DNA from: Gelria sp. Kuro-4
GTDB lineage: Bacteria > Bacillota > DTU030 > DUMP01
Length of the DNA: 64,000 nt
Direction of reading: 5' to 3'
NCBI RefSeq assembly: GCF_019668485.1
Contig: NZ_AP024619.1
Location: 1,921,001-1,985,000, forward strand
Shown here: in pieces, positions 10,678-19,208 of the stretch
How positions within the stretch are numbered: the stretch's first letter is position 1
Layout of the letters: each line of letters begins with the position of its first letter
Notes under the pieces: generated by a model
What the model saw: the letters and a program-made list of their open reading frames with translations, nothing else
The model's database searches: none
Told to the model about the DNA's origin: nothing
Translations under genes and position numbers: made by a program

Positions 10678-11067
10678 ATGCACCTTCGTTCTCTCAAGCG
10701 CTCGCGGGCAGAAGTATCCCTCTATGACCCCATTGGCGTGGATAAGGAAGGGAATGAAGTCGTGCTTTTGGACGTGCTCGGTACCAGCGCGGACGTGGTG
10801 GCCGACCTCATTGAGAGCCGGTTTGAAAAAGAAAAGCTCTACGAGAAGATCCGCCGCCTGGGTCGGCGGGAACGCAAGGTCCTGGAGCTCCGTTACGGCC
10901 TTCCTTGCGGCGGCAAGAAAACGCAGCGGGAAATCGCCCGCCTTCTAGGGATCTCCCGCTCCTACGTCTCTCGCATTGAAAAGCGCGCTCTGGCCAAGCT
11001 CTGCGGCGAACTTTTGCGCGAGGAAACGTACCCCTCTCCTTCCAGGAATGCAGTCAAGGGGCGCTGA
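10678..11067 (+). CDS. Sigma-K C-terminal half (regions 3-4 only)
   Basis: The 129-aa product matches the C-terminal half of the late mother-cell sigma factor. It reads MHLRSLKRSRAEVSLYDPIG, then VDKEGNEVVLLDVLG, RRERKVLELRYGLP, and the region 4 helix-turn-helix TQREIARLLGISRSYVSRIE. The -10-recognising region 2 is absent. Homology extends a few codons upstream of the ATG (GIEILMHLR, compare ENEILMHLR in sigma-K) and then stops. That is about where skin-type elements split sigK in Bacillus. The ORF resembles SpoIIIC in content and length. It may be one half of an interrupted sigK, or a truncated duplicate. On its own it is unlikely to be a functional sigma factor. Confidence 0.8.
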   Translation: MHLRSLKRSRAEVSLYDPIGVDKEGNEVVLLDVLGTSADVVADLIESRFEKEKLYEKIRRLGRRERKVLELRYGLPCGGKKTQREIARLLGISRSYVSRIEKRALAKLCGELLREETYPSPSRNAVKGR

Positions 11068-11276: not shown

Positions 11277-11285
11277 CATAATATA
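11277..11285 (+). promoter_or_regulatory. Possible sporulation-type -10 element
   Basis: CATAATATA fits the CATANNNTA -10 pattern of mother-cell sigma factors (sigma-E/sigma-K). It lies about 50 nt upstream of the large surface-protein gene. No clear matching -35 element was found, so this is weak. Confidence 0.25.
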
Positions 11286-11336: not shown

Positions 11337-14300
11337 ATGGACGACAGCTCTGTGTCGCTTGCCACATCTAGCCCCACGGCCTACGGGAACCTCGCTCTCG
11401 ACGTCCGGGACGTGCTGACGGGAGTCCAGGTACCGGAGTTCCGTTATCTCGTGAACGAGGACAACGTGGGCGATCCCCAAGTTGAACTGCCCGAAGACGA
11501 GCGCGACCCCAGCCTGTTTCCCTCCTTGAAACCGGGTGCGAGTTACAGCCCTGTTGTGCTGGCAGGGGAAGCCCGGGGGATGTCTACGGCGATATTTGCC
11601 CTGCCTGCCGGCAAGTACTTGGTTACCGTCCTGGCCCCGGGCTTTAAACTGGGTGGGACATGGGTGACGGTACCGCCCGGTGCGGACGTGACGGCCGAGG
11701 TCAAGCTCCATCCTCATCCCCTACCCCTGTCGCGCATACGGGTGCACGTTTTTCACGACAACCACCCGGTGAACGGCGAAGACGATTTTCCGTTGGAGAT
11801 GGGGCTGGAAGGCTTTCGCATTACCGTTACTGATGCCGTCGGAGAAGTCACCGTCGACTATTTCGGCAACCCGCTCGGCACCGCGTACGAGCGTACCCCG
11901 GAGGGAAATATCGTCTTGGATGAGTTCGGCCGGCCGGTCCCTATTCCGGGCACGGGCGGGGTGGTTCTCACCGATGCCGCCGGGAACGCGCTCATCGATA
12001 ATCTGGCTCCCGGTAAGTACGGGGTCCAGGCCATTCCGCCGGATGGGACGGACTGGATCCAAACCACTACAATTGAGGGAACCCATGTCATCGATGCTTG
12101 GATTGAAGAAGGCAACGACGGCTACAGCCCGCGGGAAGGCTTTCAGGCCCCCTTGGTCTGGATAGGATTCGTGCGGCCGCTGGATTTCCCGTCGCCCGGG
12201 TCAGAGAACACCGGTACGATAAAAGGGCGAGTGCGCACGATCATCGAGTTTATACCCCCCTTTAAACCGTTAACCTTGGGAGAGCCGGTAGACCGCCCTT
12301 GGCTGGCCCTCAGCGACATCGGCGCCGACGACCAGCAGGTCTACACCGGGCGGGGCGACAGCGACGGCACCTTTCTCATTCCCAACGTACCGCCGGGCGT
12401 GTACCAGCTCGCCATCTGGGATGAGCCGCTGGATCACATCATTTCCTTCCGCACAGTGGAGGTGGGGCCGAACCAAACCGTGGATCTCGGTGAAATCGGC
12501 ATTCCGCGCTGGTTTGGGTATATTCAGGGCACGGTATTTATCGACCCCGACGGCGACGGCGTGCGGGAAGAGGGCGAACCGGGCATCCCCAACGTCGCCG
12601 TCAAGACGCGCTTCAAAGACGGCAGCGTGCAGTACACCACAGTGACCGACCCGCGGGGAGACTATCGGCTGGACGAAGTGTTCGAGCTGGAGCGTTTCGC
12701 CGTGGCGGAAGTCGGCTTCACCCGCCTGGCCCGCACCGGAGCCACCGGCACGCCGGACTTCGGCATTCCCCTGGTTGACCCCGCCAACCCGGGCGGGCTG
12801 TGCCGCGATGAGGCCGGGCATTACGTGCGCTGCCCGGAAACCTATCCGAAAGCGCTTACCCTGGCCGAGCTCACCTGGGCGGCGAAGACGAACCGGATCG
12901 ACTGGGGTAAGAGGCCCTACATGGCGGCAGAAAACGGCGGCATCTCCGGCATGGTGTACTACGCCACCATGCGCAATGAAACCGACCCCCGGTATGCGAT
13001 AGCCGAAGACTACGAACCCGGCATACCCGCCGTAACGCTCAATCTTTACCGAGCCGACGTTGACCCGGAAACCGGTCAGGTGGTCCAAGGAAAGCTCATC
13101 AACACGACGATCACCGATGCGTGGGAACACCCCACCGGCTGCATAGACCACGACGGCAATTCCGTGAACTGCACAGAGGTTCCGAATATCTCCAACCAGA
13201 TCCGCCCGGGCGTTTTTGACGGAAGCTATGCCTTTGAGACTTATTGGGACCCCTTTTACGGTGCGCCCGGTGCCGTGGAAAAACCGCTTCCGCCTGGCTC
13301 TTACATCGTCGAGGTCGTTCCCCCGCCCGGCTATAAAACCCTGGGCGAAGGCGGGTCCACCAACAAGGAGCAGGGTGACGTCTTTGTCCCCTCTCCCAGG
13401 GCAGACCGGTTGCCGGGTCGGCCTGAAGGCAGCCAACTGCGCATCGCCCCGCCCCCGTTTTATTCACCACCGCCTCCGTTCTTTGAGTTCACCAAAAGGG
13501 TAGTGCGGGTGGCAAACGGGCTTAATGCCACCGCCGACTTCTTCTTGTACACCGACGTCCCCGTCCCGGGCCGGATAGTCGGTTTCCTGCTGGACGACGT
13601 AAACCTGGAGACAGATCCGGCTTTCATTTACTACGGCGAAAAGCGCGGCATTCCGAATACGCCGGTGGGCATCAGAGACTTCACCGGCCGCCTGCTGACC
13701 ACGGTGCATTCGGATATCAACGGGATATTCGAAGTACTGTTGCCGTCCACCTATACCTGTAACCTTCCCACTCCCTCCGGCATCGCTCCCGGCATGTACC
13801 AGGTCGTCGGGAACGATCCGGGGGACCCGGACAGCCCCAACCCGAACTACAACCCCAACTACCAGTCGCTGAAAATGGTCTTCGACGTTTGGCCGGGTAA
13901 GACCACTTACGCCGACGTAGCTCTCTTCCCGATAACCGCCTTTGTCGCCGCCCCGGGGGTGCAGTTTGCCCAACCGCCTCAGTGCCGGGTGAGTCCGGAC
14001 ACACCGCAGATCTTCCGGGTAAGCCAAGTGTACGTCGACCTGCTCTCCCTCGATGACGGGCCCAGGACTTTCGACATCCTCGGCACGGGTTTTGGGGACG
14101 CGCCCGGCAGGGTCACCTTAAACGGCCAGGCCATCCCGGTGCTGGAGTGGACGCCCTTCCACGTAAGAGCTCTGGTTCCATATGGTTTTCAGCCGGCCGG
14201 CCCGGCGCAACTTTCCCTGACCAACGCCGCGGGCAAAGGGAGCTGCACCGGTATCACCATGCACCTCTTAATGGAAGGCGTCTACCGGCCCAACTTGGCC

Positions 14301-15941
14301 GTCGTCGCCCAGGACGGGACCGGCCGCTACGGCAGCATTCAGGCGGCCATCGACAACGAACCAGACGGCACGGTGGTGGTGGTTAAGCCGGGTATCTACT
14401 ATGAAAGCCCGATCCTCTACAAGAACATCAAGCTCCAGGGCATGGGCAGCGGAGGGATCAGGGCGGACGGTTCCGGCGTGCAGGGCTCGGTTATTGACGG
14501 CAGGTTTTTCCTCTCTTACCAGCAAGAGTGGCTGGCAAAGCTGGAAAGCATCGATTTTGACGGGCCGGAACAGGTGCCGCCCGGCCAGGTTAAAGATATA
14601 AGCAGCGGCCAAGCGATCACAGTAGTAGCTAAGTCCGGAGCCTTCCGCGCCGATTTCGCGCCGCAGATAGACGGCTTTACCATTACCGGCACCCGGGGCG
14701 AAGACGCCGGCGGGATCTACATCCATGCCCACGCTGATTACCTGGTCGTCAGCAACAACATCATCCAGAGCAACGGGGGAGGCTTCGGCGGCGGCATCAC
14801 CATCGGCCGGGCTTACGCGGGCGACAACTACAATGCTAACATCCATATCCATCACAACCGCGTGTTGAACAACGGCGGTATCAGCCTGGCGGGAGGAATA
14901 GGCATCTTTAACGGGGCACGGAACTACCATATCGAGTACAACGATATCTGCGGCAATTACTCGGCGGAATACGGCGGCGGCATCTCCCACTACGGTTACA
15001 GCCCTGGCGGGAAAATCCACCACAACCGCGTGCTCTTTAACGCCTCCTTCGACGAAGGAGGGGGCATCTTCATCGGCGGCGAACAACCGGTACCGCCCGC
15101 GACGCTGACCAGGGGGTCCGGGGAAGTTGAGATTTTCAACAACCTGATCCAGGGCAACATCGCCAACGACGACGGCGGCGGCATCCGCCTCCTGCAGCCT
15201 TTGGACTTCCGGATCAACATTTATAACAACATCATCGCCAACAACGTCTCCACCGACCTGGGCGGCGGTCTGGCCCTCGACGATGCGTCCAATGTCGCCA
15301 TCTTTAACAACACCATCGCCAAGAATATCAGCACCGCCACCGCCGAGGACAGCGACGGCCGGCCCCACGGTGCCGGCTTGGTAAGCGAAGCGAACAGCGC
15401 CGCCTTCCAGGCTTACCTTCCGCCGGGCTCGCCGGCTTTCAGCAACCCGGTTCTTTTCAACAACATCTTCTGGGATAACCGGGCGGGCACTTACAACCAG
15501 TCCCTTAACGGCGGCCGGGGCGGTATAGCCGGGATCGGCGCTCCCGGGGACCCGGAACCGGTTAGGGTGCTGGACCTGGAGGTCTTCGGCGCTCCCGGAA
15601 AGCTCAATCCCGAATACTGCAGCCTGTCCCAACCATATGAGGGCGGCAGCAACAATCTTACCGGCAACCCCGCGTTTGTAGCGGAATACGACACCCGCCT
15701 TACGGCCGTGGCCTTCAATATGGAACCCGACTTCCGCTCGGTCAAAATAGTGACGGCCGTCCCCGAACTCGAAGGAGATTACCACTTGAAGAGCACCTCG
15801 CCGGTCATCGACCGGGGCGCCGCACAGGTCGTAAGGGATAAAGAAGTGTTTTCCGCCCCCGCCGACGATTTTGACGGCCACCGGAGGCCCCAGGGGGCGG
15901 GGTACGACATCGGCGCCGACGAAGTGGTAGCTGCGGGTTAG
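11337..15941 (+). CDS. Large multidomain beta-helix/SdrD-B-like surface-type protein
   Basis: The 1534-aa protein has a string of immunoglobulin-like/carboxypeptidase-regulatory and SdrD-B-like modules in its N-terminal 870 residues (for example GTVFIDPDGDGVREEGEPGI near 400). An IPT/TIG-like domain follows at about 884-965 (FDILGTGFGDAPGRVTLNG). A right-handed parallel beta-helix covers about 985-1520, beginning GRYGSIQAAIDNEPDGTVVV. Its repeats are rich in NNIIxxN and GGGI turns. There is no signal peptide, membrane segment or LPXTG motif. The ATG at 11337 has GAGGAGG 7 nt upstream. It heads a plus-strand operon with three multicopper-oxidase paralogues, the first 28 nt downstream. A self-assembling surface, perhaps spore-surface, protein is my inference. 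Confidence 0.8.
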   Translation: MDDSSVSLATSSPTAYGNLALDVRDVLTGVQVPEFRYLVNEDNVGDPQVELPEDERDPSLFPSLKPGASYSPVVLAGEARGMSTAIFALPAGKYLVTVLAPGFKLGGTWVTVPPGADVTAEVKLHPHPLPLSRIRVHVFHDNHPVNGEDDFPLEMGLEGFRITVTDAVGEVTVDYFGNPLGTAYERTPEGNIVLDEFGRPVPIPGTGGVVLTDAAGNALIDNLAPGKYGVQAIPPDGTDWIQTTTIEGTHVIDAWIEEGNDGYSPREGFQAPLVWIGFVRPLDFPSPGSENTGTIKGRVRTIIEFIPPFKPLTLGEPVDRPWLALSDIGADDQQVYTGRGDSDGTFLIPNVPPGVYQLAIWDEPLDHIISFRTVEVGPNQTVDLGEIGIPRWFGYIQGTVFIDPDGDGVREEGEPGIPNVAVKTRFKDGSVQYTTVTDPRGDYRLDEVFELERFAVAEVGFTRLARTGATGTPDFGIPLVDPANPGGLCRDEAGHYVRCPETYPKALTLAELTWAAKTNRIDWGKRPYMAAENGGISGMVYYATMRNETDPRYAIAEDYEPGIPAVTLNLYRADVDPETGQVVQGKLINTTITDAWEHPTGCIDHDGNSVNCTEVPNISNQIRPGVFDGSYAFETYWDPFYGAPGAVEKPLPPGSYIVEVVPPPGYKTLGEGGSTNKEQGDVFVPSPRADRLPGRPEGSQLRIAPPPFYSPPPPFFEFTKRVVRVANGLNATADFFLYTDVPVPGRIVGFLLDDVNLETDPAFIYYGEKRGIPNTPVGIRDFTGRLLTTVHSDINGIFEVLLPSTYTCNLPTPSGIAPGMYQVVGNDPGDPDSPNPNYNPNYQSLKMVFDVWPGKTTYADVALFPITAFVAAPGVQFAQPPQCRVSPDTPQIFRVSQVYVDLLSLDDGPRTFDILGTGFGDAPGRVTLNGQAIPVLEWTPFHVRALVPYGFQPAGPAQLSLTNAAGKGSCTGITMHLLMEGVYRPNLAVVAQDGTGRYGSIQAAIDNEPDGTVVVVKPGIYYESPILYKNIKLQGMGSGGIRADGSGVQGSVIDGRFFLSYQQEWLAKLESIDFDGPEQVPPGQVKDISSGQAITVVAKSGAFRADFAPQIDGFTITGTRGEDAGGIYIHAHADYLVVSNNIIQSNGGGFGGGITIGRAYAGDNYNANIHIHHNRVLNNGGISLAGGIGIFNGARNYHIEYNDICGNYSAEYGGGISHYGYSPGGKIHHNRVLFNASFDEGGGIFIGGEQPVPPATLTRGSGEVEIFNNLIQGNIANDDGGGIRLLQPLDFRINIYNNIIANNVSTDLGGGLALDDASNVAIFNNTIAKNISTATAEDSDGRPHGAGLVSEANSAAFQAYLPPGSPAFSNPVLFNNIFWDNRAGTYNQSLNGGRGGIAGIGAPGDPEPVRVLDLEVFGAPGKLNPEYCSLSQPYEGGSNNLTGNPAFVAEYDTRLTAVAFNMEPDFRSVKIVTAVPELEGDYHLKSTSPVIDRGAAQVVRDKEVFSAPADDFDGHRRPQGAGYDIGADEVVAAG

Positions 15942-15969: not shown

Positions 15970-16971
15970 ATGGCCAGAATCGATAAGCGCTTCGGGGCCA
16001 CCGACGGCTGGATTAAGATGCCCGACGGCACCGAGCATTATATCTTCGGCTTCGTCGACCTCACCGGCGTTCCCGAAGAACGGCCGGCGCTCTACCGCGG
16101 CCGAGCCACCCTGCCGGGGCCTTTACTCGAGGTCGACGAAGGGGATGAGGTCTACCTTACCCTGACCAACCTGGGTTTTCCGGGAAGGCCGGAACTCGAC
16201 GACACGCACACCATCCACTGGCACGGCTTCCCCAACCAGATACCGCTGTGGGACGGGGTGCCGGAGACCTCCATCTCCGTGCCCGTCGGCCGAAGTTTCA
16301 CCTATTACTTTAAGCCGGCCGACCCCGGCACTTACATGTATCATTGCCATTTCGAGCCGGTCGAACACATTCAGATGGGAATGCTGGGGCCTTTGATCGT
16401 CCGGCCGGCCCTGGAAAAAAACCCCGCCTTCGCCGGCCGGCTTTTTGCCTACAACGACACGGCTACGGAGTACCAGCGTGAGGTCATCCTTCTGCTCACG
16501 GAGCTGGACGCCGTCGCCCACAGCCGGGTGGCCGCAGCCCAACCCTACGACTGGACGGAGTACCGGCCGCACTATTGGCTGATCAGCGGGCGGAGTTACC
16601 CGGACACCGTAAAGCCCGCCGACGACCCCTCCTTACCCGGCCAGCCCTTCTCTGCGCTCATCGCCGCGCAGCCGGGGGAAAAAGTGCTCCTGCGCTTCAT
16701 CAACCTCGGTTATGAGCTGCACACCTTACAGCTCTTGGGCCTACCCCTCAGGATAATCGGGCAGGACGCCAAGCTCCTGCGCGGATACCACGGGGAAGAC
16801 CTGAGCCATTCGGCAACAGGCCTCACCCTTGCCGCCGGGCAGACCGTCGACGCTCTGGTTACCGCTTCCCGCCCGGGGATTTATCCTCTTTATAACCGCA
16901 GCTACCATAAAAACACCAATGCCGGGCTGACGTTCGGCGGCATGGTCACCGAGTTCAGAGTGGTGCCGTAA
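15970..16971 (+). CDS. Multicopper oxidase paralogue 1, carrying the N-terminal copper motifs
   Basis: The 333-aa protein is built of cupredoxin domains. Domain 1 has HWHG (His83, His85) and HCHFEPVEHIQMGM (His125-Cys126-His127, His133, Met138). The C-terminal domain lacks the usual HPxHxHG and HCH motifs; the corresponding position reads GYELHTLQLLG. A complete three-domain oxidase is usually longer, so this product alone cannot form the standard four-copper set unless it assembles with partners. No signal peptide is visible. AGAAAGGAG upstream is a good ribosome binding site. The next two genes are paralogues, and the second has the missing C-terminal motifs. Confidence 0.85.
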   Translation: MARIDKRFGATDGWIKMPDGTEHYIFGFVDLTGVPEERPALYRGRATLPGPLLEVDEGDEVYLTLTNLGFPGRPELDDTHTIHWHGFPNQIPLWDGVPETSISVPVGRSFTYYFKPADPGTYMYHCHFEPVEHIQMGMLGPLIVRPALEKNPAFAGRLFAYNDTATEYQREVILLLTELDAVAHSRVAAAQPYDWTEYRPHYWLISGRSYPDTVKPADDPSLPGQPFSALIAAQPGEKVLLRFINLGYELHTLQLLGLPLRIIGQDAKLLRGYHGEDLSHSATGLTLAAGQTVDALVTASRPGIYPLYNRSYHKNTNAGLTFGGMVTEFRVVP

Positions 16972-17026
16972 CTGTGGCCGCCCGGCTTCCCGCCGGGTAG
17001 AATTTAATCGTCTTGGGGGAAAGAAA

Positions 17027-18217
17027 ATGCCGACTGTAGAGCTTTGGGCCAAAGACGGTTACGTAAGTACTCCCGACGGCAACAGCATCTATTTTTGGGG
17101 TTTTGCGCGCAGCCGTGAAGGCAAGGCCCAGTTGCCGGGGCCCGCGATAATCGCCAGGCAGGGAGAACCCCTCACCGTCAGGCTGGTCAACCTTCTGCCG
17201 GAACCGGTTTCGCTTTCCTTCCCAGGGCAAATCGGGGTGACGGTGGACGGAAGCCCGGTTAGACCTCAGTACGAAGGCGGAAAGTTGGTCTCCTTCACCA
17301 ACCACGCCCTCCCCGGAGAAAGCGTGTCCTACACTCTTGCGCCAACCAGCCCGGGCACGTTCCTTTACGAAAGCGGGTCGAATCCGCCCAAGCAGGTACC
17401 CTTGGGCCTGTACGGGGCTCTGGTGGTGAGGCCCGCCGACTATAATCCGGAAATCAAGGAGTACAAGACGGCCTACGGTTACGGGACCGATACGGCCTTC
17501 GACCGTGAGTACCTCTTAATCACGGGCGAAATCGACCCTGAGTTCCACCAGGCCGCAGCCGAAGGCCGCCCTTACGAGCTAAGCCGCTACAAACCCCGCT
17601 ACTGGACGCTCAACGGCCGCTCGGCGCCGGACACCATGCTCCCGGACAGCGCCGCCCACCTTCCGCATCAACCCTACGGCGCCATGATCATGGCCGAACC
17701 CGGAGAAAAGGTGCTGCTGCGGTACATCGGCGCGGGAACCGCGCACCACCCGCTGCACCCGCACGGCAACCACACGCGGGTCCTGGCCCTGGACGGGAGG
17801 CTGCTCCGGAACGGCGCCTTCGACCGCTCCTACGAGCGGTTTACGGTTCTCGTCGGCGCCGGTCAGACCTGTGACCAGATTTACCAGTGGTTCGGCTTGG
17901 GCTATTCGCCGGAAAACCCGATCCCCACAGTTCTACCCAACCTGCGCAACCTGGGCATCGGCGACGCCGGTTGGACCATGTGGAGCGGGAGTCCCTATCT
18001 CGGCCTCAAAGGAGACATCCCCCAGGGCGTAGTCTCCTTCAACGAGGAAGGTGAGTACTATTTCATGTTGCATTCCCACCAAGAGTTTCAGATAACCAAC
18101 TGGGGGGAATTTCCCGGCGGCCTGATGACCATGATCGCCGTTCATCCGCATTTAAGTCCCGATAGGGGCGTGTTGAAAGAGAGCGAAAGGGGTACGGGCT
18201 ATGGGAATAGTGTTTAG
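17027..18217 (+). CDS. Multicopper oxidase paralogue 2, carrying the C-terminal copper motifs
   Basis: The 396-aa product aligns along its length with its two neighbours. In the N-terminal domain HWHG is replaced by FPGQIG, and HCH...H...GM is replaced by YESGSNPPKQVPLGL, so those copper sites are gone. The C-terminal half keeps HHPLHPHGNH (His240, 241, 244, 246) and FMLHSHQEFQITNWGEFPGG (His349, His351), which are trinuclear-type ligands. The motif set is thus complementary to that of the upstream gene. It starts ATG after a 55-nt gap with GGGGGAAAG and overlaps the third paralogue by 17 nt. No signal peptide is seen. A hetero-oligomeric oxidase is inferred. Confidence 0.85.
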   Translation: MPTVELWAKDGYVSTPDGNSIYFWGFARSREGKAQLPGPAIIARQGEPLTVRLVNLLPEPVSLSFPGQIGVTVDGSPVRPQYEGGKLVSFTNHALPGESVSYTLAPTSPGTFLYESGSNPPKQVPLGLYGALVVRPADYNPEIKEYKTAYGYGTDTAFDREYLLITGEIDPEFHQAAAEGRPYELSRYKPRYWTLNGRSAPDTMLPDSAAHLPHQPYGAMIMAEPGEKVLLRYIGAGTAHHPLHPHGNHTRVLALDGRLLRNGAFDRSYERFTVLVGAGQTCDQIYQWFGLGYSPENPIPTVLPNLRNLGIGDAGWTMWSGSPYLGLKGDIPQGVVSFNEEGEYYFMLHSHQEFQITNWGEFPGGLMTMIAVHPHLSPDRGVLKESERGTGYGNSV

Positions 18218-19208
18218 CAGCCTGCAAGTCGTACCCGGATTGATAACCCTGGCCGGAAAGAGCATCCCTTTTTGGGGTTTTTCGTACGCTTACCATCCGC
18301 GGCCGCGGCCGCAGCTGCCCGGCCCTATTATCCAGGCGACGGCCGGCGACTATATAAGAATGGCGTTGGTCGTCCGGCCCAACGCTCCCTTCGGGGAAGA
18401 TCTGTCCATCATTTTCCCGGGGCAGGAAGGCGTTGAGGTGCGCAGTATTCCCCGCTTTCCGTTTCGGCCCGTACAGCCGCAATATGCCGATGGAAAAATG
18501 GTTTCTTTGACCGACTACCTGGCCGCGGGTGAGATCGGGGCGATCGAGTACAGATTCCGAGCCGTTCGCTCCGGCATTTATCTCTACGAGAGCGGTACGA
18601 ATTCGGCCGAACAAGTGCAAATGGGCCTCTACGGAGTAATAGTAGTGCGGCCGGTAGGTTACGGCCAACCGTGGCATCCAGATTTCCGCACGGCGTACGG
18701 CCGGGATACTGCGTCCAGGCACGATATCGAGAAAATCCTGGTCTTGGGCGAAATCGACAGCGCCATGCACAACAGCGTCGTTTCAAGGGCCGACTACAAC
18801 CTGCTCGACTTCCGCCCCGACTGCTGGGTGATCAACGGCCGCTCCTTTCCACACAGCATCGCCCCGGACGACGATTCCAGCCAGCCTTACGGCTCGGCGA
18901 TAACGTGCCGCGTGGGGCAGCGGGTGCTTCTGCGAATCCTGAATGCCGGCTTTCAAGCCCACACCCTTGCCCTCGGGGCCCTGACCGGCAGGGTAATAGC
19001 CGAAGATGGTTATCCGCTCAAGATCGGCAGTAGCGACGCCACCTACGAGAAAACGGCGGTGACCGTCGGGCCCGGCCGAAGCGTCGATCTCCTTGTTACC
19101 CCTCCTCATCCGGGCGAATTCTATGTCTACGACCGGGAATACCGACACCTGGTAAGTGACGACCGATTTCCCGGCGGAATGATGACAAAAATCACAGTTA
19201 CTCCTTGA
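18201..19208 (+). CDS. Multicopper oxidase paralogue 3, copper motifs lost
   Basis: The 335-aa protein keeps the cupredoxin framework shared with its neighbours (for example QLPGPIIQATAGD, LLRILNAGFQAHTLALGAL, DRFPGGMMTKITV). The copper motifs are all replaced: IIFPGQEG for HWHG, YESGTNSAEQVQMGL for the HCH...H...GM segment, and neither HPxHPHG nor HSH is present in the C-terminal part. It is therefore very unlikely to be an oxidase itself. A structural or assembly role with the other two is the simplest reading. ATG start with GAAAGGGG upstream, inside the end of the preceding gene. Confidence 0.8.
   Translation: MGIVFSSLQVVPGLITLAGKSIPFWGFSYAYHPRPRPQLPGPIIQATAGDYIRMALVVRPNAPFGEDLSIIFPGQEGVEVRSIPRFPFRPVQPQYADGKMVSLTDYLAAGEIGAIEYRFRAVRSGIYLYESGTNSAEQVQMGLYGVIVVRPVGYGQPWHPDFRTAYGRDTASRHDIEKILVLGEIDSAMHNSVVSRADYNLLDFRPDCWVINGRSFPHSIAPDDDSSQPYGSAITCRVGQRVLLRILNAGFQAHTLALGALTGRVIAEDGYPLKIGSSDATYEKTAVTVGPGRSVDLLVTPPHPGEFYVYDREYRHLVSDDRFPGGMMTKITVTP

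Follow-up and report, generated by a model that had tools for sequence, protein, structure and literature searches.

The window analysed here, a stretch of 64,000 nucleotides of the Gelria sp. Kuro-4 genome (Bacillota; contig NZ_AP024619.1, positions 1,921,001 to 1,985,000), carries on its forward strand a row of genes for three proteins related to multicopper oxidases, named P1, P2 and P3, preceded by a gene for a giant adhesin-like protein. In window coordinates, the features of this locus are as follows.

11337..15941, + strand: giant adhesin-like protein of 1534 amino acids, assigned as a fourth component from Pfam/NCBIfam matches, linkage and fusions
15970-16971, + strand: P1, 333 amino acids, two-domain multicopper oxidase subunit with the type 1 ligands and half of the cluster ligands in domain 1
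16207..16224, + strand: P1 H80 (type 1 copper) and H83 and H85 (trinuclear cluster), invariant in 77/77 loci and aligned with HTIHWHG in domain 1 of the solved oxidase 3g5w
16342..16383, + strand: P1 H125-C126-H127, H133 and M138, two cluster histidines and the type 1 Cys, His and Met, invariant
17027-18217, + strand: P2, 396 amino acids, two-domain multicopper oxidase subunit with the other half of the cluster ligands in domain 2 and no type 1 site
17756..17764, + strand: P2 H244 and H246 (cluster), invariant in 80/80 loci
18071..18079, + strand: P2 H349-S350-H351 (cluster, with Ser at the type 1 Cys position), both histidines invariant in 80/80 loci
18201-19208, + strand: P3, 335 amino acids, two-domain multicopper oxidase fold without copper ligands

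Analysis of open reading frames, Pfam matches and paralogy bears out the preliminary description of this DNA, which had reported three tandem multicopper oxidase genes and their motifs at this position. The reading frames of P2 and P3 overlap by 17 nucleotides, and the proteins are paralogues (P1 and P2 are 35% identical, with an E-value of 4e-47; P2 and P3 40%, 3e-57). The Pfam family Cu-oxidase_3 passes its cut-off in all three proteins, and Cu-oxidase_2 and Cu-oxidase do so in P1 alone, so that the trio possesses the cupredoxin domains of the Cu-oxidase families that are typical of the multicopper oxidase superfamily. No further copy of the trio genes was found in the rest of the genome.

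The copper ligands are divided between two of the chains. Domain 1 of P1 contains HTIHWHG (H80, H83 and H85) and HCHFEPVEHIQMGM (H125, C126, H127, H133 and M138), of which H83, H85, H125 and H127 are the four histidines assigned to the trinuclear cluster; the copper sites of its domain 2 have been lost. P2 contains HPLHPHG (H244 and H246) and HSH (H349 and H351) in domain 2, and its domain 1 reads ESG at the position of HCH, while P3 has neither motif set. The type 1 ligands and the eight cluster histidines, forming four HxH pairs, make up a full set only when P1 and P2 are taken together, and in no single chain. This split, already noticed in the single sequence, is upheld by alignment of related loci, in which all 8 ligand columns of P1 (77/77 loci), together with the carboxylates E129, E132 and D95, and all 4 of P2 (80/80 loci) are invariant. 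Because the ligand columns are so conserved, the complementary motif pattern is not due to chance. The type 1 cysteine position of P2 is occupied by serine in 54 of the 80 loci, asparagine in 24 and alanine in 2, and in none by cysteine. Location of type 1 copper in the N-terminal domain defines the type C two-domain oxidases (PMC13151041), and it is likewise only domain 1, that of P1, that carries the type 1 ligands in the trio.

The loci compared were obtained by searching with the P2 alignment one genome per species for 84,980 species; this gave 216 relatives, from which 80 loci were retained. They belong to nine phyla: Bacillota, Chloroflexota, Actinomycetota, Pseudomonadota, Myxococcota, Acidobacteriota, Verrucomicrobiota, Planctomycetota and Bdellovibrionota. 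Thus the search for the trio in other genomes, which had been proposed as a check, gave a positive result, and a search for the contrary case, in which the genes would occur one by one and independently, gave no example among intact copies. All three genes are adjacent in the order P1-P2-P3 in 77/80 loci, the remaining 3 being interrupted by contig ends, and in a survey of 399 genomes of the phylum about 17, belonging to many families, had the trio in this order. On the maximum-likelihood tree P1, P2 and P3 form one clade each with parallel subclades; therefore the division arose once, and the three genes have been inherited together. P3 diverges fastest, with a mean column identity of 49% compared with 67-71% for the other members of the trio. 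In some Bacillota (L079, L077, L080 and L074) a C-terminal fibronectin type III-like domain was recognised in P3 by eye, and elsewhere P3 extends to 600-1400 amino acids or more in open frame.

The giant protein was missed in the preliminary description. Its domains include SdrD_B, carboxypeptidase-regulatory-like, fn3_3 and NosD-like beta-helix domains and a choice-of-anchor Q C-terminus. A homologue, mostly a full-length match with 32-74% identity, is located directly upstream of P1 in 74/77 loci, and in the other 3 the contig ends less than 1.7 kb upstream. In three loci from Acidobacteriota and Verrucomicrobiota (L134, L152 and L159) the giant protein and P1 form an in-frame fusion, with the giant part joined to the P1 N-terminus. 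The fusion partner in Paraburkholderia (L169) is the C-terminus of P3, within a single annotated coding sequence, and one open frame spans P3 and the giant protein in Cupriavidus metallidurans (L168), a probable fusion. That the giant protein is fused to one subunit in some lineages and to another elsewhere is an argument for a single complex of all four proteins, in which it is a constant partner that probably serves the oxidase as an anchor or scaffold outside the cell.

Several relatives serve as natural controls. In one genome (G054, locus L030) P1 and P3 are kept, and both P2 and the giant gene are absent from the 16-kb locus. Its P1 reads HTIYWEGF and HCYFETVEHLQMGM (HCYFE), so that H83, H85 and H127, three of the four cluster histidines, are gone and all type 1 ligands are retained, a pattern that agrees with a role of the four P1 histidines solely in conjunction with P2. 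Such a lone P1 is perhaps a re-purposed blue copper protein. In the same phylum there are single-gene relatives of 474-554 amino acids (L035-L037 and L083-L087) with HTIHIHG, HCHQEASEHVQMGM, a second HxHG and HNH, that is, the eight cluster histidines and the type 1 ligands, in one chain, although these are partly lost in L083. They share with the trio the signature HCHxExxEHxxMGM and HxH...TNxGxxPGG, and from their sequences they presumably represent the unsplit state; the giant gene was not seen beside them in the DNA examined at these loci. The ligands already lost in L083 (G237) are apparent from HILG, HCF and YVHG. Three remnants were also observed, namely a P1/P3 hybrid without P2 (L034, G002), a giant fragment followed by P3 (L081, G371) and a P3 fragment (L082, G098); deletion between paralogues or assembly collapse is suggested as their origin.

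Among solved structures, P1 and P3 are most similar in sequence to the type C oxidases 3g5w and 2zwn, and for P2 3g5w comes second. For structure prediction, natural same-frame DNA of relatives was translated with stop codons read as glycine, and the resulting read-through chains were submitted to AlphaFold2. The P1-P2-P3 chain of a Chloroflexota locus (L111, 1122 amino acids) was modelled with a predicted template modelling score (pTM) of 0.88 and a mean predicted local distance difference test (pLDDT) value of 86.6, only the artificial linkers being disordered (pLDDT < 50), and the P1-P2 chain of Desulfoscipio geothermicus (L098, 762 amino acids) with a pTM of 0.84. Prediction of the two- and three-subunit complexes had been proposed at the outset; in these read-through models of relatives P1, carrying one half of the cluster ligands, is confidently packed on P2, carrying the other. 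In Foldseek comparisons the fold of 3g5w agrees with the trio model with a root-mean-square deviation of 2.7 Å, and the Thermus laccase can be superposed on it with a template modelling (TM) score of 0.68-0.71 over about 750 columns; maize laccase aligns with the P1-P2 model with a TM score of 0.57 over 809 columns. With such long spans, laccase domains 1 and 3, the pair holding the cluster, would coincide with the opening domain of one subunit and the final domain of the subunit that follows. The scores and alignment spans are thus indirectly consistent with models in which domain 1 of P1 packs on domain 2 of P2 as in a laccase. Ceruloplasmin, factor VIII and Mnx match the trio model locally in order, but the global TM score is about 0.2 (0.21 for ceruloplasmin). 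The order of subunits in the modelled ring differs from the chain order of ceruloplasmin, as would be needed for a shared site, in which domain 1 of P1 has to contact domain 2 of P2 and not that of P3.

Considered as a whole, the locus very probably encodes a heteromeric multicopper oxidase derived from type C enzymes, with one active site at P1-P2, P3 closing the ring, and the giant protein as partner. The idea that complementary loss signifies an obligate hetero-oligomer gains support from the invariant half sites, the lone P1 of G054, the fact that each of the three genes is monophyletic and inherited with the others, and the packing predicted in the models. Such an enzyme probably originated from a gene for an ancestral two-domain type C homotrimer by triplication and complementary loss, giving P1, P2 and P3, which in 1:1:1 stoichiometry would form a ring of six cupredoxin domains with a single active site. 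The type 1 copper in domain 1 of P1 would accept electrons from the substrate, and these would pass through Cys126 and His125/His127 to a trinuclear cluster at the P1-P2 interface, where copper would be bound by H83, H85, H125 and H127 of P1 and H244, H246, H349 and H351 of P2, and O2 would be reduced to water. The preliminary description allowed for either the site or the electron transfer to it to extend across subunits; by this scheme the cluster would span P1 and P2, but transfer from type 1 copper to the cluster should stay within P1, given the HCH motif. The copper-free P3 would complete the ring, the giant protein would anchor the assembly, and the substrate may be a phenolic compound or a metal, for example Fe(II).

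Several points weigh against this interpretation. The modelled chains are fusions of relatives (P1 and P2 of L098 are 55% and 67% identical to those of the window), tethering in one chain can bias the predicted packing, and the AlphaFold2 models place no copper. Most other laccases aligned with the P1-P2 model over shorter spans and with lower scores. In addition, many of the Bacillota hosts are anaerobes, in which an O2-reducing enzyme would need a special niche. If the genes were instead decaying duplicates of a two-domain oxidase, the complementary loss of motifs would result from drift and there would be no joint enzyme; the motif loss is indeed real, P3 diverges fastest, and degraded remnants exist in G002, G371 and G098. 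However, all 12 ligand positions are invariant across nine phyla, the gene order is constant, the trio has a single ancient origin and its frames are open throughout, making decay exceedingly improbable. Pseudogenes were rejected as an explanation for the same invariance of the ligand positions.

The proteins could also act separately, P1 as a blue electron-transfer protein or homotrimer, and P2 in copper binding or transport. The type 1 site of P1 is complete by itself, and G054 demonstrates that a P1 with type 1 ligands can be kept without P2. Nevertheless, the cluster histidines of P1 are as invariant as its type 1 ligands, and only where P2 is present, the placement of P1 against P2 is confidently predicted (pTM 0.84), the unsplit relatives carry both halves, and half clusters are not known to have a use by themselves, so that separate functions appear improbable. 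A real complex with an interface site that is type 2-like or degenerate, acting for example in nitrite reduction rather than on O2, agrees with the two-domain trimer of copper nitrite reductases and with their scoring in the same searches. This possibility, which is considered very unlikely, does not account for the eight histidines in four HxH pairs and the HCH link that are the mark of a trinuclear cluster. This pattern is lacking in nitrite reductases, which use three histidines, and the Cu_nitrite_red model (TIGR02376) scores 44 bits, far below its cut-off of 296. The heteromeric oxidase with one shared site is therefore retained as the preferred interpretation.

Sequence signals bearing on the location of the complex differ between lineages. 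Outside Bacillota hydrophobic signal-like segments were found in P2 (51/57), P3 (49/57), the giant protein (10 of 12 testable) and P1 (10/55), and the N-termini of P1 from L111, L112 and L142 contain RR motifs like those of twin-arginine signals. Among the Bacillota loci hardly any copy of the four proteins has such a segment (at most 1 of about 20-24 each), and the hosts with named genera are known spore formers. The operon of the window comes directly after the 3' half of sigK (window 10678-11064, + strand), the 5' half of which is 19.8 kb away on the same strand (G000:C1:1911484-1911828, within locus L176, G000:C1:1910800-1922500) and adjoins a large serine-recombinase gene (L176:1013-2524, - strand). 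The interruption of sigK is a skin-like intervening element, and the first ~10.6 kb of the window lie inside it. A class A beta-lactamase-like protein (L176:4812-5729, - strand) was noticed in this element by eye only. Upstream of the giant gene there is one further feature.

11277..11285, + strand: SigK-like -10 element CATAATATA, about 50 nucleotides before the start codon of the giant protein; weak, with no -35 element

Sites of this kind number 8 in the window, where 7.3 are expected by chance, and one precedes the giant gene in 5 of 21 Bacillota loci. CotA and Mnx are assembled on the spore from the mother-cell cytoplasm. By analogy with them, and since signal segments are nearly absent, the hosts form spores and the operon follows sigK, the likeliest and preferred location in sporulating Bacillota is the spore surface, where the four proteins would assemble from the mother-cell cytoplasm. 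In many Actinomycetota and Chloroflexota a CopC/CopD-type copper uptake gene was observed 3' of the trio (L136:10930-13668; about 19 loci), a neighbour that fits a copper enzyme. With some reserve, it is also proposed that these loci encode ancient and widespread four-component oxidases of the extracellular space or spore surface, with an obligate two-gene cluster, a one-site heterotrimeric ring and a giant scaffold, which are possibly metal-oxidising.

A literature search for heterotrimeric or split multicopper oxidases returned no matching description. The nearest known systems are the type C oxidases (Nitrosomonas europaea BCO, 3g5w; metagenomic 2zwn), which like the trio have two cupredoxin domains per chain with type 1 copper in domain 1, and whose cluster is built where domain 1 of a protomer adjoins domain 2 of its neighbour, as is proposed for P1 and P2. 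However, the known members are homomers with both half sites in each chain and three active sites per trimer, whereas in the trio three different chains, each without part of the site, share one site and have a fourth giant partner. The statement that ordinary multicopper oxidases carry all motifs in one chain, on which the preliminary description relied, is correct for the sequence but not for the site, as in trimers of two-domain oxidases each cluster takes its ligands from two protomers of the homotrimer (PMC13151041). Likewise, the new architecture it suggested is heteromeric as supposed, but is a derivative of the two-domain type C trimer rather than unrelated to it. The chemistry and the ring are already known from two-domain oxidases; no earlier description was found of one cluster divided over two gene products, with an inactive third subunit and a giant partner.

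Ceruloplasmin, hephaestin and the bacterial MnxG, an oxidase of the Bacillus spore (exosporium), resemble the trio in having six cupredoxin domains and one cluster left after the loss of others, but they are single chains with the cluster between domains 1 and 6 or 2 and 3, while the trio consists of separate genes and global superposition fails. Bacterial six-domain enzymes have their type 1 copper in domain 2, and domains 2 and 3 hold the cluster between them (PMC3600357). The trio as a simple split of MnxG is unsupported, since type 1 copper and the cluster are in other domains and the chain order is not superposable. The Mnx complex, MnxE3F3G, is also a multisubunit, spore-associated multicopper oxidase, but all its cluster ligands are within MnxG, and MnxE and MnxF are small unrelated subunits (PMC5622069). 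The trio can be regarded as a separate-chain counterpart of the step proposed for ceruloplasmin, in which a symmetric two-domain trimer lost two of its three active sites.

Another similar system is Slit_1816-1818 of Sideroxydans lithotrophicus ES-1, three adjacent cupredoxins, two of them with oxidase motifs and the third larger, without such motifs and with adhesin/polysaccharide-lyase-like domains; the cluster is more abundant during growth on magnetite, and similar clusters occur in Paraburkholderia and Ralstonia (PMC12016527). In the available part of that report (PMC12016527) Keffer and colleagues describe these proteins as uncharacterised cupredoxins, with no mention there of complementary half sites, and the likeness to the trio is one of description. 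The ES-1 locus was not identified among four genomes searched via relatives of L162. The related loci of Cupriavidus and Paraburkholderia (L168 and L169) have the corresponding P3-giant arrangement. Such an enzyme is easily overlooked, because each gene alone looks like a broken oxidase or a hypothetical protein, as in the Paraburkholderia plasmid record. These data suggest that the ligands of a copper cluster that reduces O2 can be distributed over different gene products, and that such a division can persist in many phyla. As far as the ES-1 cluster matches the trio, its reported rise on magnetite (PMC12016527) favours a metal as substrate and makes a role in mineral oxidation directly testable.

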